From Methyloceanibacter sp. (lineage in GTDB: Bacteria > Pseudomonadota > Alphaproteobacteria > Rhizobiales > Methyloligellaceae): 33,919 nt of DNA. Below are positions 15,620-33,919 of the stretch, one piece after another. A program made the position numbers and the translations under genes. Numbering within the stretch: the stretch's first letter is position 1; each line of letters starts with the position of its first letter. The DNA lies in the NCBI GenBank assembly GCA_018067145.1, contig JAGPVD010000018.1:1-33919 (forward strand), read 5' to 3'. The notes beneath the pieces are model-generated. The model made no database searches and had not been told where the DNA came from. It saw nothing but the letters and a program-made list of their open reading frames with translations.

Positions 15620-16351
15620 TCAAGCGGCGCGCGGATTCCTGACCAAAAGGTCAAGAAGGCGGCCGCGGGCCGCCGGCATTTTGAGGCCGTGAGGCGCCAG
15701 CACGTCACGCTCAAGGAAGTACCCGGTCAGGGCAAACCCGGCGGCGATATCGGCCTCACTTAAGGGCGCGGTCGCATCCAGCAGGAAGCCAGGCAGCGCC
15801 AGCATCTTGTCGGCATAGGGTTCCCCCGCCTCCCTCGACACGGCTCGGCTTGAGCGCGGCGACACATAGGCCAAGTCCTGGCTCGTGCCCGTGGCGGCGC
15901 ATTCGGAGAGGTCGAGGCCGAAGCCGAGCTCCTGCAGCATCTGGACCTCCCAATGGACCAGAAGCGCGGGCCAGATTTCAGGTTCCTCGAACGAACGCAC
16001 CACATGTAGCGTCGATGCAAAGAGTTCTGGGTGCGGATCACGCTCAGGCAGAAGTTTGAGAAGGCCGGCCATGGAACCAATGGCGGACAGCGCGCCTGCG
16101 TCATCGAAGACGCGAGCGCCATGCGCCTCCATCATCTCCACATTGTAGCCGCCGAGATGTTCAGGGAGCCGGGCCCGCCAGGTCACACGGATGAGATTTC
16201 CGGGTTGAAGAATGGGACGAATACGGCGGGAGCGCCCGCCTCGCACGAGGCCGAGATGGCGGCCATGTTCGAGCGTTAGCAATTCGGCTACCGCGCTCGT
16301 TTCCCCGAGCGGCTTTGCCGATAAGAAGATGCCTTCGTCGCTCCAGTCCAT
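15620..16351 (-). CDS. recO: DNA repair protein RecO
   Basis: MDWSDEGIFLSAKPLGETSAVAELLTLEHGRHLGLVRGGRSRR...QPGNLIRVTWRARLPEHLG; LQELGFGLDLSECAATG. Confidence 0.95.
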   Translation of the reverse strand: MDWSDEGIFLSAKPLGETSAVAELLTLEHGRHLGLVRGGRSRRIRPILQPGNLIRVTWRARLPEHLGGYNVEMMEAHGARVFDDAGALSAIGSMAGLLKLLPERDPHPELFASTLHVVRSFEEPEIWPALLVHWEVQMLQELGFGLDLSECAATGTSQDLAYVSPRSSRAVSREAGEPYADKMLALPGFLLDATAPLSEADIAAGFALTGYFLERDVLAPHGLKMPAARGRLLDLLVRNPRAA

Positions 16352-16365
16352 GGACTAAGCTTGGC

Positions 16366-17301
16366 CTATCCCTTGGGATAGTCCAGGCCCATCTCGCGGA
16401 ACCGCTCCGGGTCTTCACCCCAGCGCTCGCGCACCTTGACGAACAAGAAGAGATGCACGGGCACACCGACAATCTCGGCAATATCCGCGCGCGACGCGGC
16501 GCCGATCTCCTTGATCATAGAGCCCTTGGCGCCGAGCACGATGCGGCGTTGGCTCTCGCGCTCCACATAGATCGTCTGCTCGATGCGAATGCTGCCGTTC
16601 TTCAGTTCTTTCCAGACGATGGTCTCGACTGTGAGTGCGTAAGGCAGCTCTTCGTGGAGACGCAGGAATAGCTTCTCGCGGGTGATCTCCGCGGCGGTCT
16701 GGCGAAGTGAGGCGTCCGAGAGCTGATCCTCGGGGAAGAGCCAAGGACCCGGCGGCACAGCAGCGGCAAGAAAGGCTTTCAGGTCCGGAATGCCGTCGCC
16801 GGTGAGTGCCGAAATCATGAAGACCTGGTCAAAGACCCCGAGTTCGGAAAGTTCGTGGGTGAGGCGCAAAAGGTCCGGTTTCGCCACGAGGTCGATCTTG
16901 TTGAGGATGGCGATGGTGGGCCGTTTGATCCTCGGAAGACGTTCAATGAGAGGGCTCACCTTGGCATCGAGCCCGCGTTTTGCATCGATCACCAGCGCCA
17001 CGATGTCGGCATCGCCCGCGCGATCCCAGGCGGCTTGCGACATGGCACGGTCGAGCCTGCGTTTCGGCTGAAAGATGCCGGGCGTATCCACGAGAATGAT
17101 TTGAGCGTCATCCACCAGAGCCAGTCCACGCACGGGCCCACGCGTGGTCTGCGCCTTGTGGGTGACGATGGATACCTTGGCGCCGACCAGCGCGTTGGTC
17201 AGGGTCGACTTGCCGCTATTCGGTGCGCCAATCAGAGCCACGAAGCCGCAACGCCTCGCCTCCTCCGGCACGGTCTTTTTTTCGGACTCGGTCTCAGTCA
17301 T
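16366..17301 (-). CDS. era: GTPase Era
   Basis: GAPNSGKSTLTNALVGAKVSIVTHKAQTTR; DTPGIFQPKRRLDRAM; NKIDL; C-terminal KH domain IVLGAKGSMIKEIGAASR. ORF extends to 17322; Met at 17301 preferred. Confidence 0.96.
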   Translation of the reverse strand: MTETESEKKTVPEEARRCGFVALIGAPNSGKSTLTNALVGAKVSIVTHKAQTTRGPVRGLALVDDAQIILVDTPGIFQPKRRLDRAMSQAAWDRAGDADIVALVIDAKRGLDAKVSPLIERLPRIKRPTIAILNKIDLVAKPDLLRLTHELSELGVFDQVFMISALTGDGIPDLKAFLAAAVPPGPWLFPEDQLSDASLRQTAAEITREKLFLRLHEELPYALTVETIVWKELKNGSIRIEQTIYVERESQRRIVLGAKGSMIKEIGAASRADIAEIVGVPVHLFLFVKVRERWGEDPERFREMGLDYPKG

Positions 17302-18043
17302 CGGCAATCGGTCTCCAGACACCTTCGCGTATCAACATTGCGAGCGCCGCCGCCTGTTCGGCTTGCCGCTTATTATCCCCTTCCCCGTGTTCAGGGGCAA
17401 AACCCACGACGCGCACCTCTGTCGTAAAGCGCGGCGCATGATCGGGGCCCTCTCGCGCTGTCTCACGATATTGCGGCAATGGCCGGCCTTCGCCTTGGGC
17501 CCATTCCTGTAATGCCGATTTTGCGTCCGGCGCGGCAATCTCCAGATTGCCGAAATGGGGCTCCCAGTCGCGGTTCACGACGACACGGGCCACGTCATAT
17601 CCGGCATCGGAGAAGATCGCACCGAGAATGGCTTCGCAGCTGTCGGCCAGAATGGTCTTCTTGCCGCGCCCCCCGGAGGCGGCTTCGCCGACACTCATGT
17701 GAATGAAAGCGCCAAGCGACCAGCTTTGCGCGACCTCGGCGCAGGTCTCTGCGCGGACCAGGTGATTGAACCAGCGGGCCAGCTCGCCTTCACTCGCTTT
17801 TGGGAAGCGGCTGAGGAGCAATTCGGCCATGGCAAGACCAAGTACGCGGTCGCCTAGAAATTCGAGCCGCTCATTGTCTTCGTTGGGCTTGCTTCCGGGG
17901 CGTGCACTCGCATGAGTCAGGGCCAGCTTGAGAAGTTTGGGGTCGGAAAACTCATGTCCGAGCCGGGACGAAAGCGGGCCGAGATCCTTGGTGCTGCGTT
18001 TGGCCAACGCGCTCAGCGAACCGCTGTAAAGATGCGGTCCCAA
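17294..18043 (-). CDS. rnc: ribonuclease III
   Basis: ERLEFLGDRVLGLAMAELL catalytic motif; DSCEAILGAIFSDAGYD; C-terminal dsRBD. Exact start uncertain (overlaps lepB). Confidence 0.95.
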   Translation of the reverse strand: MGPHLYSGSLSALAKRSTKDLGPLSSRLGHEFSDPKLLKLALTHASARPGSKPNEDNERLEFLGDRVLGLAMAELLLSRFPKASEGELARWFNHLVRAETCAEVAQSWSLGAFIHMSVGEAASGGRGKKTILADSCEAILGAIFSDAGYDVARVVVNRDWEPHFGNLEIAAPDAKSALQEWAQGEGRPLPQYRETAREGPDHAPRFTTEVRVVGFAPEHGEGDNKRQAEQAAALAMLIREGVWRPIADD

Positions 18044-18768
18044 CGGACTTCCGTCGGCCAGCGCCAGAACTGCCAGAAGCTTGAGTCCTCATCGATGGAG
18101 AAGAAGATCACTTGCGCCTTACCCACCAGATTGACAAACGGCACGAAACCCACCTCGGCCAAGAAGCGGCTGTCGGTGGAATTGTCGCGGTTGTCGCCCA
18201 TCATGAAGAAATGTTCCTCGGGCACTTTGTAGACTTCGGTGTTGTCGCCAAAACCATCCTTGACCAGATCGAGCACGGGATAGCTGACACCGTTCGGGAG
18301 GATCTCTTCGTAACGCGCCATATGCCGCTCGCGGCCAGACGGGGCGGTCACAATATAGTCGTCGATCTCGACCTTCTCGATGGCGTTGCCGTTGATGTGT
18401 AGCACGCCATGGACCATCTGAATTTCGTCGCCCGGCAAACCGATCACACGCTTGATGTAATCCGTCTCGTTATCGCGCGGCAGCTTGAACACGGCGACAT
18501 CGCCGCGTTCCGGGTCGGAAGCCCAGATGCGGCCTGGGAAGAGGTTGATGCCGAAGGGAAATGAGTAGCGGCTATAGCCGTAAGTAAATTTTGAAACGAA
18601 GAGATAGTCGCCGACCAACAGGGTCGGGATCATGGAGCCCGAGGGAATGTTGAACGGTTGAAACAGAAAGACGCGCACGACCAGCGCGAGGATCAGCGCG
18701 TGAATAATGACGCGCACAGTATCCTTGGTGCTGCTCTTTTCTTCAGTCTTGTCGGCGTCCACGCTCAT
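18013..18768 (-). CDS. lepB: signal peptidase I
   Basis: FNIPSGSMIPTLLVGDYLFVSKFTYGYSRYSFP; GDVAVFKLP..TDYIKRVIGLPGDEI; MMGDNRDNSTDSR. Confidence 0.97.
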   Translation of the reverse strand: MSVDADKTEEKSSTKDTVRVIIHALILALVVRVFLFQPFNIPSGSMIPTLLVGDYLFVSKFTYGYSRYSFPFGINLFPGRIWASDPERGDVAVFKLPRDNETDYIKRVIGLPGDEIQMVHGVLHINGNAIEKVEIDDYIVTAPSGRERHMARYEEILPNGVSYPVLDLVKDGFGDNTEVYKVPEEHFFMMGDNRDNSTDSRFLAEVGFVPFVNLVGKAQVIFFSIDEDSSFWQFWRWPTEVRWDRIFTAVR

Positions 18769-18872
18769 GCGGGAACTCTCCTCGGTATCTTTTCAGGCCG
18801 GCTGTGGTCCGCGAGCCCCAATCCTTGAGACAGGCGCCCCTATAGCCCCTCCTCAGGGATCAGGCAAACGCC

Positions 18873-19283
18873 TCAGTCGCGTGCCGGACCCTTTAGGGCA
18901 GAGATGAGAACAATTGCCTGGGCGGACGGGAAATCGTCGGTGATAGTGAGATCGATGCGGACCTCATATCCATCCGGCGTTAGGCGCTGAAGGACAGCCG
19001 CCGCGCCCCCGGTCAGCTTCAATGTGGGGCGGCCTGACGCCAAATTTACGACGCCCATATCGCGCCAGTACACACCTTTGCTGAAGCCGGTGCCGAGCGC
19101 CTTGGCGCAGGCCTCCTTGGCTGCGAAACGTTTGGCATAGGAGGCGATGCGTTGAGCCCGACCGTCGGACTTTTGACGCTCAACGTCCGTGAACACGCGA
19201 TTTAAAAAACGCTCGCCGTAGCGCTCGATTGTTTTCTCCACGCGCCGAATGTCGATGAGGTCGTTACCGAGCCCGATAATCAT
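18873..19283 (-). CDS. acpS: holo-[acyl-carrier-protein] synthase
   Basis: [35 protein letters not shown]...[19 protein letters not shown]. Alternative GTG start at 19286. Confidence 0.95.
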
Positions 19284-20086
19284 CACGCGCCACCTGACAT
19301 ATTTGCGGCCCGGCCTTTGCTCATGGCCTCACGCATGCGCCGCACGCTTTCGCTGAGACCACCGAACACGGCATCGCCCACGATAAAGTGGCCGATATTG
19401 AGTTCCACGATTTCAGGCAGCGCGGCGATGGTCTCAGCGGTCGCATAGTTGAGTCCGTGACCGGCATGGACTTCCAACCCGAGATCACGGGCGATGCGCG
19501 CGCCGTCGCGAATGGAATGCCACTCGGCTTTTGCGTCGTCATTCCGGCCGTCCGTCAACGCATCACACCACGGGCCTACATGAAACTCGATGGCCGGAGA
19601 GCGCAAACGTGACGCCGCCTCGATCTGCAGCCGCTCGGCGGCGATGAAGAGAGACACGCGAATGCCGGCGGCGCCAAGCTCGGCCACAACCGGCGCGAGA
19701 ACGTTGTGCTGAGCGACGACATCGAGCCCGCCTTCAGTGGTGCGCTCCTCGCGCTTCTCCGGCACGAGACATGCCGCATGGGGCTTGGCCTTAAGAGCGA
19801 TTTCCTGCATCTCGGACGTCGCCGCCATTTCCAAGTTGAGCGGACATTCCAGCTCGGCGATGAGACGTGCAATGTCGTCGTCGCGAATGTGGCGCCGGTC
19901 TTCGCGCAGATGGGCGGTGATATTGTCGGCGCCTGCCTCGACGGCAAGTTTGGCCGCACTGACCGGATCGGGATGCGCCCCACCGCGCGCGTTCCGCAAA
20001 GTGGCTACATGATCGATATTGATTCCGAGCCTGATCGGTGCGGTTCTCCCGTCACCACCGGCAGGATTTGTTTGGCCCGCGCTCAT
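19283..20086 (-). CDS. pdxJ: pyridoxine 5'-phosphate synthase
   Basis: [83 protein letters not shown]. Start set at MSAGQTNP. Confidence 0.96.
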
Positions 20087-20640
20087 TTCGTCCCCAAGGC
20101 GTCGCTGCGGGCCCGGAGGGCGCGACGGCGATGCTGGTAGGCATTCACTGTAGGCTTTACGAGCACGTAGCTCAGGGCGCCTAAGGCGAGCCCGATCGGT
20201 ATGGCACCGATCGTCATCGGCTTCAGCAATGGCCAAATCTGGTTGATGGTGGCGTGAAAATCTCCACTCCACAGGTCCGCGGGCGCCTTATGTGGCCCGC
20301 CCCCGAGGATCACGTGACCGACTTCGTAGCTGCTGACCCAGAACAAAGGATAGGTCAGCGGGTTGCCAACGAATGTTCCAAGGATCGCACCGACAATGCT
20401 ACCGCCGATGATCCAGGCCAATGTCGAGGCCATCACCATGTGGAAGCCAGCGTAGGGTGTGGCTGAAATGAAAACACCCGCGGCAAAGCCCAGGGCGACA
20501 GCGTGGGGCGTGGCACTCAGTCGACGCACGCGATGAATAATGTAGCGGGTCGAGCGAGACCAACTGCGGCGCGGCCAAAGCCATACGCGCAATTTCTGGT
20601 AACGACTCTCCGCCTCTCGGCGCCTGAACAGCATCATCAC
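20083..20640 (-). CDS. DUF2062 membrane protein
   Basis: [56 protein letters not shown]. Confidence 0.88.
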
Positions 20641-20760
20641 CTCGTCTGAAAAACCGGCTATTGTCGTCCGGCGACGCCATCCATTGGCGACAGAGCCCTA
20701 ACATATTTGGGTCTGTTTTTTCCAGATGCCAGCGGCGTAGCGCTTCTTGCTTAGTAGGCG

Positions 20761-23004
20761 TTAGTATTCCGCCCGTGCAGCGCTGCTCACCACATCCTTG
20801 GCGCGCAACCCCGCCAAAATCTCGTTTAGATGCTGGACGTCCCATACCTCAAGATCGATGAGCATCTCGGTATAGTCCGCGACCCGATTGGTCATCTTGA
20901 TATTCTCGATATTGCCGTCGGCCTCGCCGATCACGGATGCCACTTGCGCCAGACTCATGGGCTCGTTCATCGCGGTGACGGCGATCTTGGCCGGGAACCG
21001 CCCAGGGTCGTCTTCGTCGATGTCCCAAGTGATGTCGATCCAGCGCTCCGGCTCCTCGTCGAACGCTTTCAAAGCATCGGCATGGATGGGGTAGATGGTA
21101 ATGCCCTGCCCCGGCGTGAGAATGCCGACAATGCGATCGCCAGGCACGGCGCCGCCATCGGCGAAGTTCACCGGTAGATCACCGCGAAGTCCCCGGATCG
21201 GAATACCGCCTGCACCCTCGGGACGCCCGCGGCCACTTGTTCCAGGCAAGCGGAATTTGAGCCCCATGACTTTGCGGAGGCCAAACCAGCCTTCGTCGGT
21301 TCGTTTCACCTTGCGCCGACGCTTTGGCGGCTCTTGCGGTCCTTCCTCTGGAAACACCGCGCGCATCACATCCGCCGAGGCGAGCTCGCCACGCCCTACC
21401 GCCGCCATGACGTCTTCGGCGGTCTTCTGGGAAAGTCGGCCCAACGCCTCTCCAATGCTCTCCTCAGAGAAAGTCTTGCCGCTTCGCCGAAAGGCGCGGT
21501 CGAGGATTTCGCGACCGAGATCGCCGTACTGCGCTCGCACCGCATCGCGCGTGGCCCGCCTGATCGCCGAACGCGCCTTGCCGGTTACGGCCAGGTTCTG
21601 CCAGGCGGCAGGCGGCTCTTGCGCGTCCGAGCACATGATCTCAACCTCATCGCCATTGCGCAACGCGGAAGCCAGCGGCATTGGCCGGCCGTTGATCCTG
21701 GCGCCGACGCATGTGTTGCCGACGTCGGTATGCACGGCGTAAGCGAAATCAATGCTGTTTGCGCCGCGCGGCAATGCGATCAAGCGCCCTTTGGGCGTGA
21801 AGCAGAACACCTGGTCCTGAAACAGTTCAAGCTTGGTGTGCTCGAGGAATTCCTCGGGGTTGTCGCTGTCGAGCAGCATGCCAACAAGGTGGCGCAACCA
21901 ACGATAGGCGTTTGAGTCCTGCGAGGGGACCTCGCCCTTACCGTTCTTGCTGTTCTTGCCCTTCTTGTCTTCGAGATCTTTGTAGAGCGCATGCGCGGCG
22001 ACGCCATATTCGGCGATCGAATGCATCAGCTCTGTGCGGATCTGCAGTTCGACGCGTTGGTGACGCGGCCCGACAATGGTTGTGTGGATGGACTGGTAGT
22101 CGTTCTGCTTTGGGTTCGAGATGTAGTCCTTGAAGCGCCCGGGAACCACATGCCAGGTCGTGTGCACCACAGCGAGCGCGTGATAGCAGTCGGGCACTTT
22201 CGGCACGACGATGCGGAAAGCGTAAATATCAGAAAGTTGCTCCAGCGAGATTTGCTTCCGCTCCATCTTGCTCCAGATGGCATAAGGCTTCTTCTCACGC
22301 CCCCCGACGACGCCTTTGACCTTGGCGTCTTTGAGCTTGGTGGTCAGCTCGCCTTCAATTTCGTCGATGAGCCCCTGGTTACCCACGCGCAAGATCTTCA
22401 GGCGCTCTACCACGGTGACGTAAGCATTCGGATTGAGCCAACGGAAGGCAAGGTCCTCTAATTCCTCGCGCAGCCATTGCATGCCCATGCGACCGGCAAG
22501 CGGCGCATAGATGTCCATGGTCTCTTCGGCGATGATCTTGCGCTTCGCCGGCTCCATGTGTTCGAGCGTCCGCATGTTGTGCAAGCGGTCGGCGAACTTC
22601 ACGAGCAACACGCGAATGTCACTGGAGATAGCAAGGAGGAGTTTGCGGAAGTTCTCGGCCTGCTCGGCCTTCTTGGTGACGAGGTCGAGCTTCTTGATCT
22701 TGGTTAGGCCGTCGACCAACGTGCCGATCTCAGCCCCGAACAGCGTATCGATCTCGCCGCGCGTAACATCGGTGTCTTCGATCGTGTCATGGAGCAGCGC
22801 GGTGGCGATGGTGGCATCGTCGAGACGCATCTCGGCGAGGATCGCGGCAACTTCAAGCGGGTGAGAGAAATACGGTGCGCCGGAAGCGCGCTTCTGATTG
22901 CCATGAGCCTTCATGGCATAGACGTATGCTCGGTTTAGCATCGCCTCGTCGGCGGTCGGCTGATAGCTCAGCACGCGCTCGACCAGCTCGTATTGGCGGG
23001 TCAT
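20761..23004 (-). CDS. rsh: bifunctional (p)ppGpp synthetase/hydrolase
   Basis: HD hydrolase (HDTIEDT, DRLHNMRTL), synthetase (YAFRIVVPKVPDCYHALAVVH; NDYQSIHTT), TGS and C-terminal ACT domains. Confidence 0.97.
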   Translation of the reverse strand: MTRQYELVERVLSYQPTADEAMLNRAYVYAMKAHGNQKRASGAPYFSHPLEVAAILAEMRLDDATIATALLHDTIEDTDVTRGEIDTLFGAEIGTLVDGLTKIKKLDLVTKKAEQAENFRKLLLAISSDIRVLLVKFADRLHNMRTLEHMEPAKRKIIAEETMDIYAPLAGRMGMQWLREELEDLAFRWLNPNAYVTVVERLKILRVGNQGLIDEIEGELTTKLKDAKVKGVVGGREKKPYAIWSKMERKQISLEQLSDIYAFRIVVPKVPDCYHALAVVHTTWHVVPGRFKDYISNPKQNDYQSIHTTIVGPRHQRVELQIRTELMHSIAEYGVAAHALYKDLEDKKGKNSKNGKGEVPSQDSNAYRWLRHLVGMLLDSDNPEEFLEHTKLELFQDQVFCFTPKGRLIALPRGANSIDFAYAVHTDVGNTCVGARINGRPMPLASALRNGDEVEIMCSDAQEPPAAWQNLAVTGKARSAIRRATRDAVRAQYGDLGREILDRAFRRSGKTFSEESIGEALGRLSQKTAEDVMAAVGRGELASADVMRAVFPEEGPQEPPKRRRKVKRTDEGWFGLRKVMGLKFRLPGTSGRGRPEGAGGIPIRGLRGDLPVNFADGGAVPGDRIVGILTPGQGITIYPIHADALKAFDEEPERWIDITWDIDEDDPGRFPAKIAVTAMNEPMSLAQVASVIGEADGNIENIKMTNRVADYTEMLIDLEVWDVQHLNEILAGLRAKDVVSSAARAEY

Positions 23005-23055
23005 GACGCGTGCCCGCTAATGCTATACGCGCCGCGCCTCAAACTCTTGTCATTC

Positions 23056-23466
23056 TCAGCGTGCGCGCGGTCCTGCATTCGAACCATCCGAAGGCGCCTG
23101 TGTCGCCATGCGACGCAACAGCTCCTCCTCGGTCATCTTATCGATCGCCGTGTCGCTGGCCTGATCGTCTTGGGCGAGAACCGGCATTCTCGTCTCCGTC
23201 GACAGCATCGGTACGGCTTCAGCCTCAGGCTCATCCACCTCGACATATTTCTGCATGGAGTGGATGAAATCTTCCTTGAGGTCCTCGGTCGCGATCTTCT
23301 TGTCGGCAATCTCGCGAAGCGCCACGACTGGGTTCTTGTCGTTATCCCGCTGCACGGTGATCTGCGCACCAGCCGCGACGGAGCGTGCGCGATGGCTAGC
23401 CAGCAGCACGAGCTCGAAGCGGTTTGGAATCTTGTCGACGCAATCCTCGACGGTGACGCGAGCCAT
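23056..23466 (-). CDS. rpoZ: DNA-directed RNA polymerase omega subunit
   Basis: [58 protein letters not shown]. Confidence 0.96.
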
Positions 23467-23543
23467 GAAGTGATCCTTTTGAAATTTGCCGGATTTGGAA
23501 CCTATTTATGCAGTTCGCACCGGCCTGGCAAGTCGAACCCGCG

Positions 23544-24089
23544 CTAAAGCCTTCGCACGACTTGGCCTTCTCGCCGTCGCGCCGCGCGCTGCCACAACGT
23601 CCGAACGTTAGTTTTGAGCACCGGATGACGCCATTCGGGCGCAATATCGAGGAGCGGCCGTAGGACGAATGGCCGTTCTGCGATCCAAGGATGCGGCAAA
23701 ATGAGGGGTCTTGGGCCGGGTCGAGCGAATCGCGGATGCCTTCCCCGCCAATGGCTCACGAGCCCCTTGTGGTCGAGAATATCGATATCGAGCGTTCGGG
23801 AGCCCCAAGGGCTGCCGCCACGGCGCCCAGCCCTTCGCTCAATCGCCTTCAAGAGCCTGAGCAGCGCTTCCCCTGATAGAACCGTGTCGATCAGGGCTGC
23901 GGCATTGACGTAAGGGGGCTGGCCAACGCGACCGACGGCCACAGTCTCATAGAACGGGGAAATCGCCTCAATCGTCGGCCCTGCCTCGTCAATTTCGCGC
24001 AAAGCTCGCGTGATCGTGTCGGCGGGAGTCCCCCAAGGCCCGGGACAATTAGCACCTAATCCTACCAAAGATTTTCCGTGTACAACCAA
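23544..24089 (-). CDS. folK: 2-amino-4-hydroxy-6-hydroxymethyldihydropteridine pyrophosphokinase
   Basis: VGLGANCPGPWGTPADTI...SPFYETVAVGRVGQPPYVNAAALIDT...GSRTLDIDILDHKG...HPRFARPGPRPLILPHPWIAERPFVLRPLLDIAPEWRHP. No ATG near the expected start; TTG (24089) inferred. ORF extends to an ATG at 24203. Confidence 0.87.
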   Translation of the reverse strand: MVVHGKSLVGLGANCPGPWGTPADTITRALREIDEAGPTIEAISPFYETVAVGRVGQPPYVNAAALIDTVLSGEALLRLLKAIERRAGRRGGSPWGSRTLDIDILDHKGLVSHWRGRHPRFARPGPRPLILPHPWIAERPFVLRPLLDIAPEWRHPVLKTNVRTLWQRAARRREGQVVRRL

Positions 24090-24187
24090 TTGTAGACCGT
24101 CCTCATCATATCCTGTGTACCCCTGACTGACCTGAAATAAGGCGTCCTTCTCACGCGCAAGCAAATTCTCAGTGTCGGGGGGGCACA

Positions 24188-24796
24188 ATGATTTTCTATC
24201 CAACAGAGCGTATCGCGCTCTTCATCGACGGCGCCAATCTATACGCGGCCGCCTAGGCACTTGCTTTTGACACTGATTACAAGCGGCTTCTCACCCTGTT
24301 CGGCAGCAAGGGGACGCTCGTCCGGGTGTATTGCTAACCTGCCCTGATCGACGACCAGGAGTACTCCTCCATCAGACCGTTGGTCGATTGGCTCAACTAC
24401 AACGGCTACACCATGTTGACAAAGCCGACCAAAGAATTTGTCGATGCTTCGCGGCGGCGAAAAGTCAAAGGAAACATGGACATTGAGCTTGCCATGGACG
24501 CCATGTAGCTCGCCGACCATCTCGATCACCTGGTGATCTTCTCCGGCGACGGCGATTTCCGCTCCTTGGTGGAAGCGTTGCAGTACAAGGGCAAGCGGGT
24601 CACCGTCGTTTCGACCCTCACCACCAACCCGCCCATGGCCGCAGACGAACTCCGCCGGCAAGCCGATCAGTTCATCGATCTGGCCAATCTGGAGAAGGAG
24701 ATTGGCCGTGACCCTGGCGAGCGGGCACATCGCGAACCGCGGCACCGTCCTGAGCCCGTCGAACAATTCGAGCGCGAGAGTCTGATGGAGACCTGA
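24188..24796 (+). pseudogene. NYN-domain (LabA/DUF88-like) protein with three in-frame nonsense codons
   Basis: Continuous frame: MIFYPTERIALFIDGANLYAAA*ALAFDTDYKRLLTLFGSKGTLVRVYC*PALIDDQEYSSIRPLVDWLNYNGYTMLTKPTKEFVDASRRRKVKGNMDIELAMDAM*LADHLDHLVIFSGDGDFRSLVEALQYKGKRVTVVSTLTTNPPMAADELRRQADQFIDL. Stops at 24254-24256 (TAG), 24335-24337 (TAA), 24506-24508 (TAG). Confidence 0.9.
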
Positions 24797-24846
24797 CGCA
24801 CGCAGGCATCTGGTGCTGGGGCCACAGTGACGCTAGGCATAGGTCC

Positions 24847-25503
24847 ATGCAGTCTGCGCCGACATCAAACCTGTCAGAACCCCCTGCCGATTGCCCGCTA
24901 TGCCCTCGCCTCGTTGCGTTTCGGCAGGATAATGAAGCTGCGCACAGCGATTGGTTCAACGGGGCGGTTCCCTCCTTCGGATGCAAGTCGGCGGGCCTTC
25001 TCATTGTCGGGCTCGCTCCTGGCCTCAAAGGCGCCAACCGAACAGGCCGGCCTTTTTTCGGCGACCATGCCGGGGAACTGCTCTACCGCACCCTGCTGAA
25101 GACTGGGCTGGCCCGTGGCCGCCACGATCTGGAGGCTCCCTCGGCGCTGGAGCTAGTCGACTGCATGATCACCAATGCGGTGCGCTGCGTTCCGCCCCAG
25201 AACAAACCGAAGAGCGACGAGATCGCCCATTGCCGCAGCTTTCTGATCGGCCGCATGCTGGCGCTTCCCAACCTGCGCACGCTACTGGCCATCGGCGGAA
25301 TCGCTCATAACAGCGTTCTCGACACGCTCAAGCTAAAGAAGCGGGACCACCCCTTTGCTCACGGCGCGCGCCATGAGCTTCCCGGAGGGCTGGTGCTGTT
25401 CGACACCTATCATTGCTCCCGGCTGAACACGAACACCGGACGCCTCACGACGGAGATGTTCGAACAAGTTGTCGGCGCGGCGGCGGCGAGCCTCAAGGCG
25501 TAG
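24847..25503 (+). CDS. uracil-DNA glycosylase family protein (UDGb/family 5-like)
   Basis: CPLCPRLVAFRQDN; LLIVGLAPGLKGANRTGRPFFGDHAGELLYRTL; NAVRCVPPQNKP; FDTYHCSRLNTNTGRLT. Confidence 0.9.
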   Translation: MQSAPTSNLSEPPADCPLCPRLVAFRQDNEAAHSDWFNGAVPSFGCKSAGLLIVGLAPGLKGANRTGRPFFGDHAGELLYRTLLKTGLARGRHDLEAPSALELVDCMITNAVRCVPPQNKPKSDEIAHCRSFLIGRMLALPNLRTLLAIGGIAHNSVLDTLKLKKRDHPFAHGARHELPGGLVLFDTYHCSRLNTNTGRLTTEMFEQVVGAAAASLKA

Positions 25504-25587
25504 GGCGCGGCCAATTGCGCTGCTTGCTGCCGCCCCACAAGTCAGGCATGCTTTCAGCTCATCACCGAGTGCTTACGAGGCATCCTC

Positions 25588-25995
25588 ATGACGGGGCTGG
25601 ATATTTCACCGACCAAAGTTGGCTTTGTCATCGTCAGAGCCCGCGAATGCGCGGCCAAGGTCGGCGCATGGGATGATAGCGCCACGTCCGACCACGACGC
25701 GGATTCGATCCTCGAAGCATTTAAAGGCGACGCCACCCAGGCTGAGCTCAAAGAGTTCATCCACGACCTCAATGACGACGAGAAGGTAAACCTGGTAGCG
25801 TTAGCTTGGATTGGGCGCGGTTCGTTCGGACCCGAAGAGCTTGACGAAGCCCTGGCCACGGCCCGCGCAGAGCGCAATCAGCGCACGGCGGAGTACCTTC
25901 TCGGCATCCCACTCCTGCCCGATTATCTGGAGGATGCTCTCGACCGGCTTGGCTACTCGGTCGAAGACGCTGAGGACGACGCACTCGGCGAGTAA
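25588..25995 (+). CDS. DUF3775 domain protein
   Basis: DDEKVNLVALAWIGRGSFGPEELDEALATARAERNQRTAEYLLGIPLLPDYLEDALDRLGYS matches the DUF3775 pattern. Confidence 0.8.
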   Translation: MTGLDISPTKVGFVIVRARECAAKVGAWDDSATSDHDADSILEAFKGDATQAELKEFIHDLNDDEKVNLVALAWIGRGSFGPEELDEALATARAERNQRTAEYLLGIPLLPDYLEDALDRLGYSVEDAEDDALGE

Positions 25996-26498
25996 TAATT
26001 TGTCAGGTAAGCCAGCACTTCACCTGCATGCGCGGCAGCATCGCTCACCGGACAAAACACCTTCTCGATGCGCGCGTCAGCGGCCACAAGCGTGAGTCGT
26101 TTCAAGTAGTTCTCTTCGCCGGCTGTGAAACTAGGTAAGCCCAAAGCACCGGCAAAGTGCCCGCCGACGTCGCTCAAGAGCTGGAAGTTCAGTCCGAGAC
26201 GCTCCACCAGTTCCTGTTGATAGTCCGTGGCCTGACCACTCAGACCGAACACCCGCGTCTCGCATCGCGCGAAACCATCGACAGCATCGCGAAAGCCTTC
26301 GAGTTCCGGCGTCGAGCCGTGAGCGCCCGGAATGTCGTCCCAGCCTGGTGGATTTGGGTGACCGGGGCGTCCGGTCCAGGGATAGACCGCGACGACACTC
26401 CGGCCAAGAAGCGTCGCCAGACTGACGTTGCCACCGTCCGTTGCAGGCAGGGAAATTAGTGGCAGAGCCAGGCCGGGTGTGAGGAGGTCAGCAGTCAA
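25953..26498 (-). CDS. peroxiredoxin-like thioredoxin-fold protein lacking the canonical peroxidatic Cys
   Basis: LTADLLTPGLALPLISLPATDGGNVSLATLLGRSVVAVYPWTGRPGHPNPPGWDDIPGAHGSTPELEGFRD...ETRVFGLSGQATDYQQELVERLGLNFQLLSD. TTG start at 26498 inferred, 8 bp past the smpB stop; ORF extends to 26627. Confidence 0.8.
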   Translation of the reverse strand: MTADLLTPGLALPLISLPATDGGNVSLATLLGRSVVAVYPWTGRPGHPNPPGWDDIPGAHGSTPELEGFRDAVDGFARCETRVFGLSGQATDYQQELVERLGLNFQLLSDVGGHFAGALGLPSFTAGEENYLKRLTLVAADARIEKVFCPVSDAAAHAGEVLAYLTNYYSPSASSSASSTE

Positions 26499-26505
26499 GA
26501 CGCCC

Positions 26506-26976
26506 CTACCCCTTCTCACGCATGAGCCGGCCCTTCTGGCGCTCCCAGTCGCGCGTCTTCTCGGTCTGGCGCTTGTCGTGGAGCTTCTTACCGCGCCCGA
26601 GGCCCAGCTGGATTTTAGCGATGCCACGTGCGTTGAAGTAGAGCCGCAAGGGGACCAGTGTCATGCCTTCGCGCTGGATCGCGCCGAGGAGCCGCCCCAT
26701 TTCACGCGCATGCAGCAGCAGCTTGCGCGGCCGGGTCGGCGCATGGCCATCACGCGACGCGCCCCGATACTCGGCGATGTGGGCGTTGATCAGGTAAAGC
26801 TCGCCGCCTTCGTCCGAGGCATAGGATTCAGCGATGGTCGCCTTGCCGACGCGTAACGACTTCACCTCCGAACCGGTCAGGACGAGACCGGCTTCGATCT
26901 TGTCCTCGATCTCGTAGTTGTAGCGAGCTTTCCGGTTCTCAGCGACGAGCTTGCCGTTCGTGGGCTTTGGCGCCAT
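26506..26976 (-). CDS. smpB: SsrA-binding protein
   Basis: [67 protein letters not shown]. Confidence 0.97.
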
Positions 26977-26994
26977 GACAAGACCCTTCCGAAG

Positions 26995-27879
26995 CTAGAC
27001 GGTGGTGAGGCCCACGACCGTCAGCGCCTCATCCACAGCCGCGCGTGACGCAGGGACAATGGGTGCTAGCGGCAAGCGCGTCTCGTTTTCGCACAGACCC
27101 AACTTCTCGGCGGCATACTTCACAGGTCCAGGATTGGCTTCCACGAACAAGGCTTCATGCAACGGCATTAGGCGTTCCTGCAATTCAAGCGCCCGTTTGT
27201 AGTTTCCGCTCATGCAGGCGAGCTGGAATTCCGAGCACAGCGCCGGTGCGACATTCGATGAAACCGAGATGCAGCCGTGTCCGCCATGAGCCATGAAGCC
27301 AAGAGCGGTCGCGTCTTCGCCAGAGAGTTGGATGAACTCGTGACCGAGCGCCGCGCGTTGCTGGCTCACGCGCGCCATGTCGGCGGTTGCATCCTTCACG
27401 CCGACGATGTTCTTGAATTTGAACAGCCGGACCATGGTGTCCACCGACATGTCGACGATGCTCCGACCGGGGATGTTGTAAATCACGATCGGAATATCGG
27501 CGGCGTCGTTGACGGCCTTGAAGTGGAGATAGAGCCCCTCTTGGGTCGGCTTGTTGTAATAGGGTGTCACCACCAGCGCGCCATCGGCGCCAGCTCCCAT
27601 GGCGTGACGTGTCAATTCGACGGCCTCGGCCGTGGAGTTGGAGCCGGTGCCGGCGATCACCGGTACGCGGCCGGCTGCCGTCTCGATGCACAACTCGATG
27701 ACACGGCGGTGCTCATCGTGGTTCAGCGTGGGCGACTCGCCCGTCGTGCCGCAAGGGACGAGGCCATGAGTGCCCTGACTGATCTGCCAATCCACCAGTT
27801 TACGGAAGGCTGCCTCGTCAACCGCGCCATCCTTGAAGGGAGTGATAAGGGCCGTAATCGAGCCATGAAACAGCGGCAT
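26995..27879 (-). CDS. dapA: 4-hydroxy-tetrahydrodipicolinate synthase
   Basis: [78 protein letters not shown]. Start at MPLFHGS. Confidence 0.97.
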
Positions 27880-28249
27880 TGGCACGGGAGGCACTCCTAA
27901 ATCGCGTGGGGGGCGTTGGAAATGATGATGAAAAGTCGGGCGGACAATAGGGGGTCGGTGTTGGGGCGGCAAGCGGACGGGCGCGGGTTTAGGCCATTCC
28001 TACGGGGATGACACCGCGCCCCTGTCATAAATCCGTATTCTGATAAAATACCTGTCGACAAGCGACTTAGGGCAACAGGCTCAGGGACATTCTACGTCCT
28101 GACGGCCCTTACGAGACATTATTCCGCCGGAATCTTTCGGACATTGTTCTATTTGGGTACACTAGACGGGCCTTTATCGTCGCGGCTCCCCGGATCTGGG
28201 GGACGTCCTGACTACAAGTCGCAGGTCGTAACCGGAACCGATCGACGAG

Positions 28250-30778
28250 ATGAAACGCATTCGTACACACAAATTGCCGCTCCTTTTGGTTCTGGCCTGC
28301 TTTTCACCCGGTTTCGCCGAGGCAAAATCTTCGGTCGCGCCGCTTCCCGATCGTAATCCCGAGCGCCCAGCTCCCATCGTCGAGCAAGCAACGACCACGC
28401 CTGATGCGAGGCCTGCCGTCCAAGAGCCTGCTCCTGCCGCAGCCAAGCCTGCGCCAGTCGAGACTGTGCCAACCGAGGTAGTATCCACCACGCGAAGCAC
28501 GGCCCCTGCGTCCGCCGCCAGTTCAACGACCGTGGCGGCGATCCCGGCCCCTGTGCTCAATCCGGACAAGCCGGCCACGGAAAATATAGCGACTCCCGAA
28601 GCGACGGTCACCCCGGCAGCTGCCGCGGTCGTAGACGAGGCGGAAGAGCCCGAGTCCGAGCCGCTCGTCAACGTGAAGCTTCCCGAGATCAATCCGAACC
28701 GCGCCTCACCCATGAGCCCACCAGCTCCCGAGCCGGCGCTCGACTACGCATCCGTTCTCAAGCCGCTCCTCTCCTACAACATCAGTTCCGCCGACGAGAG
28801 CCGCCTCAAATTCGTGATGCGCAACAAGGGCAGCATCGAACAGACCGCGGCTAAGATCACCGACCCCGCCGTGCGCGCCTTTGGGCTTTGGTATCGCTAC
28901 AAGCACCAGAAGAGTACGAACCTGAACGCCGAAGCCATTGAAGAGTTCCGGCTTAGCCATGACTATTGGCCCGGCCAGGACGACCTTCGGGAGAAGGCGG
29001 AGACCTCGCTGTTTCTCACCGACGCGGCGCCTGAAAAGATCAAGGCTTTTTTTGGTCCCGAAGCGCCCCAGACTGGCGCCGGCAAGGCGGCCATGGCAAG
29101 CGTCTACTTTAAGGAAGGCAATGAGGCGGCGGCGAAGGACCTTGTGGTCTCCGCGTGGCGCGAACACAAGTTCAACGAGTCCGTCGAGAAGAAGATCCTC
29201 AGCAAGTACAGCAAGCTGCTCACCCATGAGCATCACCGCGGGCGGATCGACAAGCTGCTCTATCCCGACAAGAAGTCCGCGACGCAGCACGCGTTGCGCG
29301 TCGCTAAGATGCTTCCGGCGTCTGAGCAGAAGAAGGTGAAGGCCCGCGTCGCAGTTGTCCAACGTGGTGGCAATGCCGGCAAGCTTCTGGATGCCTTGCC
29401 GGACGACGCCATCGAGGCGGATGTTGGTTTGCGCTTCAACAATATTCAGTGGCTCCGGCGCACTAAGAAAAAGGATGAGCGGCTCCGGGCGTGGAAGCTC
29501 CTGCTCGATGCGCCCCTTGAGCAGACCATCCTAATCGACCTCAAGGAATGGTGGATCGAACGGCGCATCAATGTCCGGGCCGCGCTCAACGACGGACACC
29601 CCCGGACCGCATACAAGATCGCCTCAAAGCATGGGCTGAGTTCGGGCGACTCCTACATTGAGGCCGAGTATCTGGCCGGCTGGATCGCGCTGCGCTATTT
29701 GGACGAACCCAACACGGCCTTGAGCCACTTCCTTGCCATGCGCAAGGCATCCACGAGCTCCAGATATATCTCGATGGGCGAGTACTGGCTTGCCCGTACG
29801 GCCCTCGTCCTTGGTGATCCCACCTCAGCCACCATTCACTTCCACGGCGCCGCCAAATACCCGCAATATTTCTATGGGCAGCTTGGACGCCAGGCGCTCG
29901 ATCCTCGGCCCGCGCGTCTTGAGGTGACATCGACCCCTACGCCAACCCAGGCCGATATTGAACGCTTCATGTCCCGCGACGGAGTGCGGGCCATCGGGAT
30001 CGCCCGCGCGGCGAATTTGGAATGGGTCACGCCGCAATTCTTCTTGGCCCTATCCCGCAAGCTCGATAACGCCGCCGAGGTCGTGCTGCTCGCCGAGCTC
30101 GCCAAGGCCACAAACAAACGGCAGATCGGCCTTAGGCTTTCGAAGATCGCCTTCAACCGCGATCTTCCGCTCGGCGACTATGCGTTGCCCGTGGGCGTAA
30201 TGCCGGCGTTCAAGAGCCTGCTCAATAAGCGGGTCGATCCCGCGCTGCTCCATGCGTTGTCCCGCCAAGAGAGCGAGTTCAACGCCGGGGCCAAGAGCCC
30301 AGTGGGCGCCAGCGGCCTGATGCAGTTGATGCCGGCCACCGCGCGGGGTGTCGCCCGGCAATATAAGGTGAAGTACTCAAAGTCGCAGCTGACCAATGCG
30401 GCCTATAATCAGCAGCTCGGCGAAGCCTTCCTGCACGATTTGATCGAGGGCTATAGCGGGTCATATTTCCTAGCGCTTGCGGCCTACAATGCCGGTCCTG
30501 GCCGCGTTAAGGAGTGGATGGGTATCTACGGCGACCCGCGCAATCCCGATGTCGATCCCATCGACTGGATCGAGCGCATCCCCTTCACCGAGACCAGGCG
30601 CTATGTCTTCAAGATCATGGAGACCTTGCAGCTTTATCGCTCCCGCCTATCGGGGCCGAACGAAGCCCTCCATCTTGTGCAGGACCTCAATCGGGGCCGA
30701 AAAGTTCCGTCCTCGCACACAGCATCCGTCACCACGGCGGCGGCCCCTATCCAAGCAGCGAGGGTCGAGGCACCTTGA
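28250..30778 (+). CDS. soluble lytic murein transglycosylase (SLT domain) with N-terminal Pro/Ala-rich region
   Basis: C-terminal ALSRQESEFNAGAKSPVGASGLMQLMPATARGVAR...YNQQLGEAFLHDLIEGYSGSYFLALAAYNAGPGRVKEWM; signal peptide; alpha-helical superhelix region. Confidence 0.93.
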   Translation: MKRIRTHKLPLLLVLACFSPGFAEAKSSVAPLPDRNPERPAPIVEQATTTPDARPAVQEPAPAAAKPAPVETVPTEVVSTTRSTAPASAASSTTVAAIPAPVLNPDKPATENIATPEATVTPAAAAVVDEAEEPESEPLVNVKLPEINPNRASPMSPPAPEPALDYASVLKPLLSYNISSADESRLKFVMRNKGSIEQTAAKITDPAVRAFGLWYRYKHQKSTNLNAEAIEEFRLSHDYWPGQDDLREKAETSLFLTDAAPEKIKAFFGPEAPQTGAGKAAMASVYFKEGNEAAAKDLVVSAWREHKFNESVEKKILSKYSKLLTHEHHRGRIDKLLYPDKKSATQHALRVAKMLPASEQKKVKARVAVVQRGGNAGKLLDALPDDAIEADVGLRFNNIQWLRRTKKKDERLRAWKLLLDAPLEQTILIDLKEWWIERRINVRAALNDGHPRTAYKIASKHGLSSGDSYIEAEYLAGWIALRYLDEPNTALSHFLAMRKASTSSRYISMGEYWLARTALVLGDPTSATIHFHGAAKYPQYFYGQLGRQALDPRPARLEVTSTPTPTQADIERFMSRDGVRAIGIARAANLEWVTPQFFLALSRKLDNAAEVVLLAELAKATNKRQIGLRLSKIAFNRDLPLGDYALPVGVMPAFKSLLNKRVDPALLHALSRQESEFNAGAKSPVGASGLMQLMPATARGVARQYKVKYSKSQLTNAAYNQQLGEAFLHDLIEGYSGSYFLALAAYNAGPGRVKEWMGIYGDPRNPDVDPIDWIERIPFTETRRYVFKIMETLQLYRSRLSGPNEALHLVQDLNRGRKVPSSHTASVTTAAAPIQAARVEAP

Positions 30779-30880
30779 ACTTTCGAGGCTTGCTCCGACC
30801 GCAACTTTCCTGAACACTGCCGCCCGAGCGCACTCAGTGTGCGGCACTCCGTATACGCTCCCAAGGTTGCATAGCCGACG

Positions 30881-31768
30881 ATGCCCGAGCTTGAAAACCA
30901 GCCGTGGCGAGACATTTTCTATGAGTCGTCCGACGGCCTTAGACTTCATGCTCGCCACTACCCGGCCCCGGATGAAAAGTTCCGGAGTGTGATCTGTTTG
31001 CCAGGTCTCACGCGCAATGCGCGGGACTTCCATACGCTTGCGACCTATCTCTCGACCCATCCCGAGAAGCCGCGCAACGTCTACTGCTTGGATTATCGCG
31101 GCCGTGGTTTGTCTCAGCATGATCGGAACTGGCGCAACTACGTTCCGTATACCGAACTAGCGGACGTCATGGACTTTCTGACCTTGCGAGGGCTGCACCG
31201 CGTGGGTGTGGTTGGCACTTCGCGGGGCGGAATTATCGCCACAATGATGGCCGCGCTCAGGCCGACAGCGATGGGCGCCCTGGTGCTTAACGACATAGGC
31301 CCCGTCATCGAGACGCGGGGGCTTGCCCGGATCGTGAGCTATGTCGGCCGCACGCCGATACCGAAGACCTGGGCTGACGCGGTAATGATCATGCGCGAGA
31401 TCAATGGCCGCGGTTTTCCCAACTTCACCGACGCCGAGTGGGACCAGATGGCGCGTGGCATCTTCGAGGAGCGCAAAGGCCGGCTCGCCCTGTCCTATGA
31501 CCGCAAACTGAGCCGGGCCATGGGATCCATCGATCTCAGCCGGCCGGTGCCGGATATGTGGCCCCAGTTCGCCGCGCTCGGACGCGTTCCCCTTTTCGTT
31601 CTCAGAGGCGAATTCTCAGACGTGCTGAGCCCGGAGACGTTGGAGTTGATGTCGGAACGTCATCCAAACATGCGGACCCTGACGGTTCCCGACCAAGGTC
31701 ACACGCCGGTGCTCCAAGAGCAGGAGCCGGTCGAGGCAATTGGCTCGTTCTTCGCGGTCAACGATTAG
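30881..31768 (+). CDS. alpha/beta hydrolase
   Basis: SVICLPGLTRNARDFHTLATYLS; DYRGRGLS; VGVVGTSRGGIIATMMAALRPTAM; DQGHTPVL. Confidence 0.92.
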   Translation: MPELENQPWRDIFYESSDGLRLHARHYPAPDEKFRSVICLPGLTRNARDFHTLATYLSTHPEKPRNVYCLDYRGRGLSQHDRNWRNYVPYTELADVMDFLTLRGLHRVGVVGTSRGGIIATMMAALRPTAMGALVLNDIGPVIETRGLARIVSYVGRTPIPKTWADAVMIMREINGRGFPNFTDAEWDQMARGIFEERKGRLALSYDRKLSRAMGSIDLSRPVPDMWPQFAALGRVPLFVLRGEFSDVLSPETLELMSERHPNMRTLTVPDQGHTPVLQEQEPVEAIGSFFAVND

Positions 31769-31788
31769 TCTGAGTTGGTGGCCGATGC

Positions 31789-32802
31789 CTAGCGCGCACC
31801 AAGTGGGGGCATCAGCGCCGGCAACACGCTCTTCGGCCCGTTAGCGTTGGTCCGCGCGTAGGCTTTGATGCGCGGGATCACTTCTGACGCGACATCGCCT
31901 GGGGCACTCGCCTCTTTCCATTTGATGCTCTCCGACGTGGAGAATGGCTTCGGCAGGTCGCGCCGGAGCTGATAGGACACCGCGACGGCGGTGCCCTGGT
32001 CCGGGGCCACGCCCTCAATAGTCACCGCGCGGCCGGAGAGAGAAACTTTTCCCGACTCCAAGCTGCTAAGCGCCCGGAGTGCGGCGATTGCCGCCTCGTC
32101 CCAACCCTCAGGCGCGCCGGAGGCGAGCTCAAGCCGGTCGTCGAGCCCGGGCCTCTCGAACAATTCCCGCGCCAATTCCCGCAGCTGCTTGCGCGCCTCT
32201 TCGCTCGGCACGCTGCCGGCGAGGCTCAACGCATTGGTCCCAAGGTCGGCGGTGAACACAAACGGATCGGCAATCGGAGGCCGCACATTCTCGCCCTTGA
32301 TCGTGAGGCCGGTCGGCAGAGGCCCTACGAGCGCCTTCTTGATCTCAACAAAGTCCTCGGCGCTGCTTGCCTCACCCGAAATCCCTAAACGGGATTTGAA
32401 AAGCCGCACGGAGCCGCGCTTGAGATGCGCCAGTTGTTGAAGCCCAAAGCTCACCGCTCCGAGCCATTGTTCCGTCGGCGTACCGTTGTCGACTATCTTC
32501 ATCCGATCTTCGACCTCGAGGTCCGGGAAAAGTGCCTTGACCATGCCGAGCAAAGTCCGTTGATCTTCTTCCGAGGGCACACTCCCGCGCAAACGAAGAC
32601 GGGATTCACTCCGCGTGGCCGACCAAATGTGGCCTGTGGGGCGCTCCTCGCTCTTGCTCGCTGTCAAAGTCACGAGACGCGCGGACGAAGCCTCGTCACG
32701 CAGGGCCGGATCGGGGCAGATGCCAGCATGTGCCCCATAGGTCGCGATCACAACCAGCGATGCGATAAGGCCGATCAATAACATCGGCCGAAACCCCAAC
32801 AT
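31789..32802 (-). CDS. exported protein with repeated BON-like modules
   Basis: Signal-like MLGFRPMLLIGLIASLVVIATYGAHAG; repeats RLRLRGSVPSEEDQRTLLGMVKALFP / ALSLAGSVPSEEARKQLRELARELF / VTIEGVAPDQGTAVAVSYQL. ORF extends to 32916. Confidence 0.6.
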   Translation of the reverse strand: MLGFRPMLLIGLIASLVVIATYGAHAGICPDPALRDEASSARLVTLTASKSEERPTGHIWSATRSESRLRLRGSVPSEEDQRTLLGMVKALFPDLEVEDRMKIVDNGTPTEQWLGAVSFGLQQLAHLKRGSVRLFKSRLGISGEASSAEDFVEIKKALVGPLPTGLTIKGENVRPPIADPFVFTADLGTNALSLAGSVPSEEARKQLRELARELFERPGLDDRLELASGAPEGWDEAAIAALRALSSLESGKVSLSGRAVTIEGVAPDQGTAVAVSYQLRRDLPKPFSTSESIKWKEASAPGDVASEVIPRIKAYARTNANGPKSVLPALMPPLGAR

Positions 32803-33197: not shown

Positions 33198-33466
33198 GGC
33201 TGGCAAGCTTCCTTCTGTTGAAAGGGCACGCGGGCCCGAATCGTTCGTTTGACGATGCGAAGCTTAAGCGATCCCTGGCTTGTTGTCCTCGGTGGAAACT
33301 CGCTCTGCGTGGAAACAAAGCCTCCTCCCCCTCCTTAAAACTCGCTGCGGGAACCATATATATCATCAGACCTTTGCCGTTTTTCGCGACAAAGGGTAAG
33401 AGCTTCGGCGGGGTCTGAGGGGGTCAGCCGGATTCTTCCATAAATTCAGCGGGGGCGAGCAGCAGC

Positions 33467-33919
33467 ATGAGTGTCGACGATCCAGGTTTTTGGGTTGCCG
33501 TATTTCAGATCATCTGGATCGATCTCTTGTTGTCTGGCGACAACGCGGTCGTCATCGCTCTTGCTTGCCGACAGCTTCCGCCCAACCAGCGCGTCTGGGG
33601 TATTGCCGTTGGCACCCTAGTGGCCATCGGCCTGCGCATCGTCTTCACCGGCATGGTGACGACGCTCATGACCATGCCCTATTTGAAACTGATCGGCGGT
33701 GTGCTGCTGATCTGGATCGCTATTAAACTCCTCGCCGGTGAAGAGGAAAGCGATGACGAGAATATCAAACCTGTCGCCAATCTTTGGCATGCAGTGCGGA
33801 TCATTGTTATCGCCGACGCGGTCATGAGCCTCGACAATGTGATCGCGATCGCTATGGCTGCGCACGGCAATTATGCGCTTCTGATGTTCGGTCTGGCCGT
33901 CAGCATCCCGCTGATCATG
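33467..33919 (+). CDS. TerC/YjbE-family integral membrane protein (truncated by window edge)
   Basis: IIWIDLLLSGDNAVVIALACRQLP...GIAVGTLVAIGLRIVFTGMVTTLM...LLIWIAIKLL...IVIADAVMSLDNVIAIAMAAHG. Confidence 0.9.
   Translation, partial: MSVDDPGFWVAVFQIIWIDLLLSGDNAVVIALACRQLPPNQRVWGIAVGTLVAIGLRIVFTGMVTTLMTMPYLKLIGGVLLIWIAIKLLAGEEESDDENIKPVANLWHAVRIIVIADAVMSLDNVIAIAMAAHGNYALLMFGLAVSIPLIM

Follow-up and report, generated by a model that had tools for sequence, protein, structure and literature searches.

Does a reading frame that keeps its family's motifs across three internal stop codons mark a lost gene, a gene whose stops are decoded as amino acids, a gene reduced to a working remnant or a fault in the assembly? 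The question is raised by a frame of 202 codons plus a TGA at 24188..24796 on the forward (+) strand of a 33,919-nucleotide stretch of DNA (hereafter the window). Translation and Pfam confirm what the first-pass annotation had described, namely an NYN-domain (LabA/DUF88-like) frame interrupted by TAG, TAA and TAG at codons 23, 50 and 107. We regard this frame as, very probably, what is left of a predicted ribonuclease gene of the NYN/LabA-like type, the only one found in its genome bin, which became a unitary pseudogene recently.

An interrupted NYN frame and its intact orthologues

Read through its two TAG codons and one TAA, the frame covers positions 1-144/145 of PF01936 at 124.6-124.9 bits (E 5e-36), passing the curated cut-off of 24.2 bits at 124.6, and it keeps all the acidic positions of the FIDGAN, NMDIE and SGDGD motifs. 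It scores below the curated cut-off of the NYN subfamily TIGR00288 (21.8 against 178 bits) and, with stops at codons 23, 50 and 107, does not encode a complete protein. VPA0982 (PDB 2qip, E 9e-10) is the sole solved structure matched by sequence. Both it and LabA of Synechococcus elongatus share the NYN/PIN-like fold family and the conserved acidic positions with the window frame, to which they are only distant homologues. LabA works in the cyanobacterial clock (also cited in PMC4287336), which is uninformative on the role of the gene in the window.

The source bin (G000; 2.34 Mb in 191 contigs, 82% complete), from an uncultured bacterium, falls in the genus that includes Methyloceanibacter methanicus and also genome G013. 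A profile search of this bin for an intact NYN paralogue, a check asked for in the first-pass annotation, returned one match, 24188-24796, and no second copy. The nearest relative, the sister bin G005, has one contig collinear with window positions 16000-32650 at 86% DNA identity and carries an intact NYN gene at the same, syntenic locus. An intact orthologue is present in every one of the 29 other family genomes searched, and NYN is matched in 60 of 61 relatives. The intact NYN proteins of Methyloceanibacter and Hyphomicrobium, like the candidate orthologue RL1504, agree with the window frame in family, frame length and motifs, whereas the window copy is set apart from its intact orthologues by its three premature stops and by missense changes at eight sites that are invariant elsewhere.

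None of 22 aligned relatives has a stop at any of the three codons. The TAG at codon 23 (24254..24256, +) stands where the sister and most of the 22 relatives have Lys and the others Arg, the TAA at codon 50 (24335..24337, +) replaces a Tyr found in 22 of 22, and the TAG at codon 107 (24506..24508, +) replaces a Glu found in 20 of 22. In the sister these positions are Lys, Tyr and Glu, which bears out the lost residues (K/R, Tyr and Glu) proposed earlier. The FYYT assumed earlier opposite VYC-stop-P in the window was mistaken, given that relatives have ALYYT and the sister AYYYT.

Around the second stop, at codons 47-52 (24326..24343, +), lies a cluster of radical changes. Over codons 49-52, in an alignment read by eye, the window has TGC TAA CCT GCC and the sister TAC TAC ACC GCC. 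Four substitutions over codons 49-51 would explain the difference, but one substitution with a 1-base deletion and a compensating 1-base insertion (three events) appears to fit as well. Hence the 'decay by nonsense alone' of the first-pass annotation is not secure. Its statement that there is no indel holds for the net reading frame, which is preserved across 24188-24796, but perhaps not for codons 49-52, where a -1/+1 pair may lie, and 'nonsense alone' is also overstated in view of the eight missense changes at sites invariant in 22 relatives.

Missense load and selection

The window differs at nine of the 102 columns that are invariant in the 22 relatives, once by a stop and eight times by a missense change (I29T, A47V, Y49C, Y50 stop, T51P, D70N, V77L, G89R and V103M), compared with 0-5 in each of the other sequences scored likewise. 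Judged against seven outgroups of the same genus, the NYN gene has 12 window-only changes at residues that these outgroups share without exception, for which the rate in neighbouring genes (23 such changes in 4,806 codons) gives an expectation of 0.95 (Poisson P about 5e-10). Window-only changes at relative-invariant nucleotides amount to 4.7% in the NYN gene versus about 1.5% in most neighbours.

A codon model of three taxa, with branch lengths taken from neighbour genes and stops treated as missing, places omega for the NYN domain at 0.12-0.15 on the window branch and at 0.04-0.05 elsewhere, an increase of about threefold over background. This difference has P 0.0013 with G007 as outgroup and is marginal with G012 (P 0.043); over the whole gene it has P 0.013 with G007 and is not significant with G012 (P 0.11). 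None of the neighbouring genes shows a dN/dS excess like that of NYN. Omega = 1 is rejected on the window branch (P < 1e-11), which indicates that the inactivation is recent. On a two-rate mixture, the simplest reading is that purifying selection acted for most of the branch and ceased for roughly its last tenth. Neutral drift would be expected to yield somewhat fewer stops than three among 12-15 nonsynonymous changes (P about 0.01).

The locus thus combines an inactivating lesion that is absent from orthologues with relaxed constraint confined to the gene, as in a pseudogene. The recent inactivation put forward in the first-pass annotation is supported by the stops, the missense load, an omega that is raised but below 1, and the intact relatives and neighbours, from which we infer loss of function in the cell. 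The order of events and the reason for the loss can be proposed conditionally. Selection on the NYN gene would have been lost in this lineage and one inactivating mutation fixed, possibly a stop or the event at codons 49-52; later stops and missense changes would then have gathered in roughly neutral proportion during approximately the final tenth of the branch from the nearest sequenced relative. Since any translation would end after 22 residues, no working NYN nuclease would be made from this locus. Ordinary bacterial unitary pseudogenes likewise show stops and missense changes amid an intact neighbourhood while relatives are intact; unlike them, the window gene lacks a clear frameshift, a less common state that would nevertheless be expected of a young pseudogene. 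Against a pseudogene stand the retention of all catalytic acidic positions, the clustering of the damage, the slight surplus of stops noted above and the whole-gene test with G012 (P 0.11).

Alternatives to gene loss

Decoding of TAG and TAA as amino acids, giving a full-length NYN protein, would suit a net-open frame with conserved catalytic motifs, but it is effectively refuted. Of the 33 other frames in the window, 22 end in one of these codons (16 in TAG, 6 in TAA), and all 33 are free of internal stops. A survey of about 100 conserved genes (114 kb of the bin) against the complete same-genus genome G004, over 30,153 aligned codons, found credible internal stops in NYN alone; the other internal stops examined all lie in N- or C-terminal extensions or in low-identity shadow frames. 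The 34 tRNAs found in the bin (82% complete) include no suppressor with a CTA, TTA or TCA anticodon, relatives lack stops at codons 23, 50 and 107, and recoding leaves the missense load around the stops unexplained. The earlier judgement that recoding is unlikely is thus borne out by stop usage, by the other genes and by the tRNA anticodons, and recoding can be excluded in practice. The same survey rules out a contig- or bin-wide background of error or decay, with no credible internal stops in any of the roughly 100 sampled genes.

A local fault is a more serious, though still unlikely, explanation: if coverage broke at about 24250-24510 and a single chimeric or error-rich read spanned the gap, the consensus could have acquired the stops and missense changes while the gene itself was intact. 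All but one of the 12 changes at residues that the outgroups keep invariant fall between codons 23 and 107, a span of 255 bp or roughly the length of a read; towards its C terminus the domain is almost free of them (P 0.03 to 0.11), and the source bin is fragmented. Isolated false stops may arise in bins of this kind: the sister bin has a lone internal stop of its own at about 4140-4145 of contig G005:C122 (L182), in place of a Trp of a 552-aa ABC-F (EttA-like) gene that is intact apart from it, probably either through a consensus error or as a fresh lesion. However, the flanking genes and the sampled genes of the source bin are free of such damage, the window-only changes (10 transitions to 7 transversions) fit the fitted kappa of 2.3 and not a transversion-rich error profile, the net frame is kept, and changes also occur beyond the 255 bp, at codons 127, 151, 174 and 198. 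An assembly error, which the first-pass annotation also considered, is thus less likely than a pseudogene, and errors are not widespread in the bin as a whole. The clean C-terminal part could alternatively be read as residual function, through an 87-aa frame translated by reinitiation from a GTG at 24533 (24533..24796, +) and kept by selection. This frame, as proposed earlier, is indeed open; it still scores 48 bits against the last part of the NYN profile, and none of 33 invariant columns (22 relatives) is changed after codon 107 versus 9 of 69 before (P 0.03). Its retention is nevertheless very improbable. No Shine-Dalgarno-like sequence is seen upstream of the GTG, and the four-acid active site would be incomplete because the fragment begins past FIDGAN and NMDIE, the first two acidic positions, so that two of four are missing. 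The contrast between the N- and C-terminal parts is not significant with a broader set of invariant sites (P 0.11), V151A falls within the fragment, and recent inactivation explains the conservation of this part equally well. Equally far-fetched is a locus that has lost its N-terminal two thirds and keeps a selected C-terminal NYN mini-protein from this GTG in a new, non-nuclease role.

Distribution of the gene and state of its neighbours

As a recent pseudogene, the locus would be a clean example of an NYN gene, widely conserved yet dispensable, that has been lost from its place next to rpoZ and rsh. This would be ordinary gene loss, with no new mechanism or decoding trick; it suggests that the lineage can live without the gene, and it warns annotators against calling the C-terminal fragment a gene. 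The earlier description of the gene as usually maintained agrees with the 29 intact copies in the family, but loss is less rare than that implied. In an order-level sample of 249 mostly near-complete genomes, 230 have an NYN match and 19 have none (several of 1.3-1.6 Mb, others of 2.5-4.3 Mb), and six further genomes of this sample have weak matches only. The gene thus appears to be widespread yet dispensable, and to have disappeared several times. In Rhizobium leguminosarum, insertion in the NYN gene RL1504, beside rpoZ (RL1505), is tolerated, and the gene is required for root attachment at pH 7.0 and 7.5 (PMC11406972). Blr5067 of Bradyrhizobium, a candidate orthologue, was detected in proteomics and called LabA-like (PMC4287336). 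One family of the order sample (f4) has no NYN match in any of its 10 sampled members, with genomes of 1.3-1.6 Mb, a separate clade-wide loss.

The genes around the NYN frame are intact: rsh (RelA/SpoT; 20761..23004, -), rpoZ (23056..23466, -) and folK (HPPK; 23544..24110, -) on one side, and a uracil-DNA glycosylase superfamily gene (24847..25503, +) downstream. The small DUF3775 gene at 25588-25995 (+) has the next highest rate after NYN of window-only changes at invariant nucleotides (4.0%), with an intact frame. An antisense open frame of 175 aa (24239-24766, -) overlaps NYN; similar frames are open in several relatives and are expected from codon composition. A second pseudogene at the window end (33355-33870) was considered and rejected as the shadow of an intact frame starting at 33467, putatively TerC-like by the look of its sequence. 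The low identity to the sister at 25953-26627 (-) is likewise not decay, as the frame from 26498 (AhpC/TSA) is intact and simply diverges faster.
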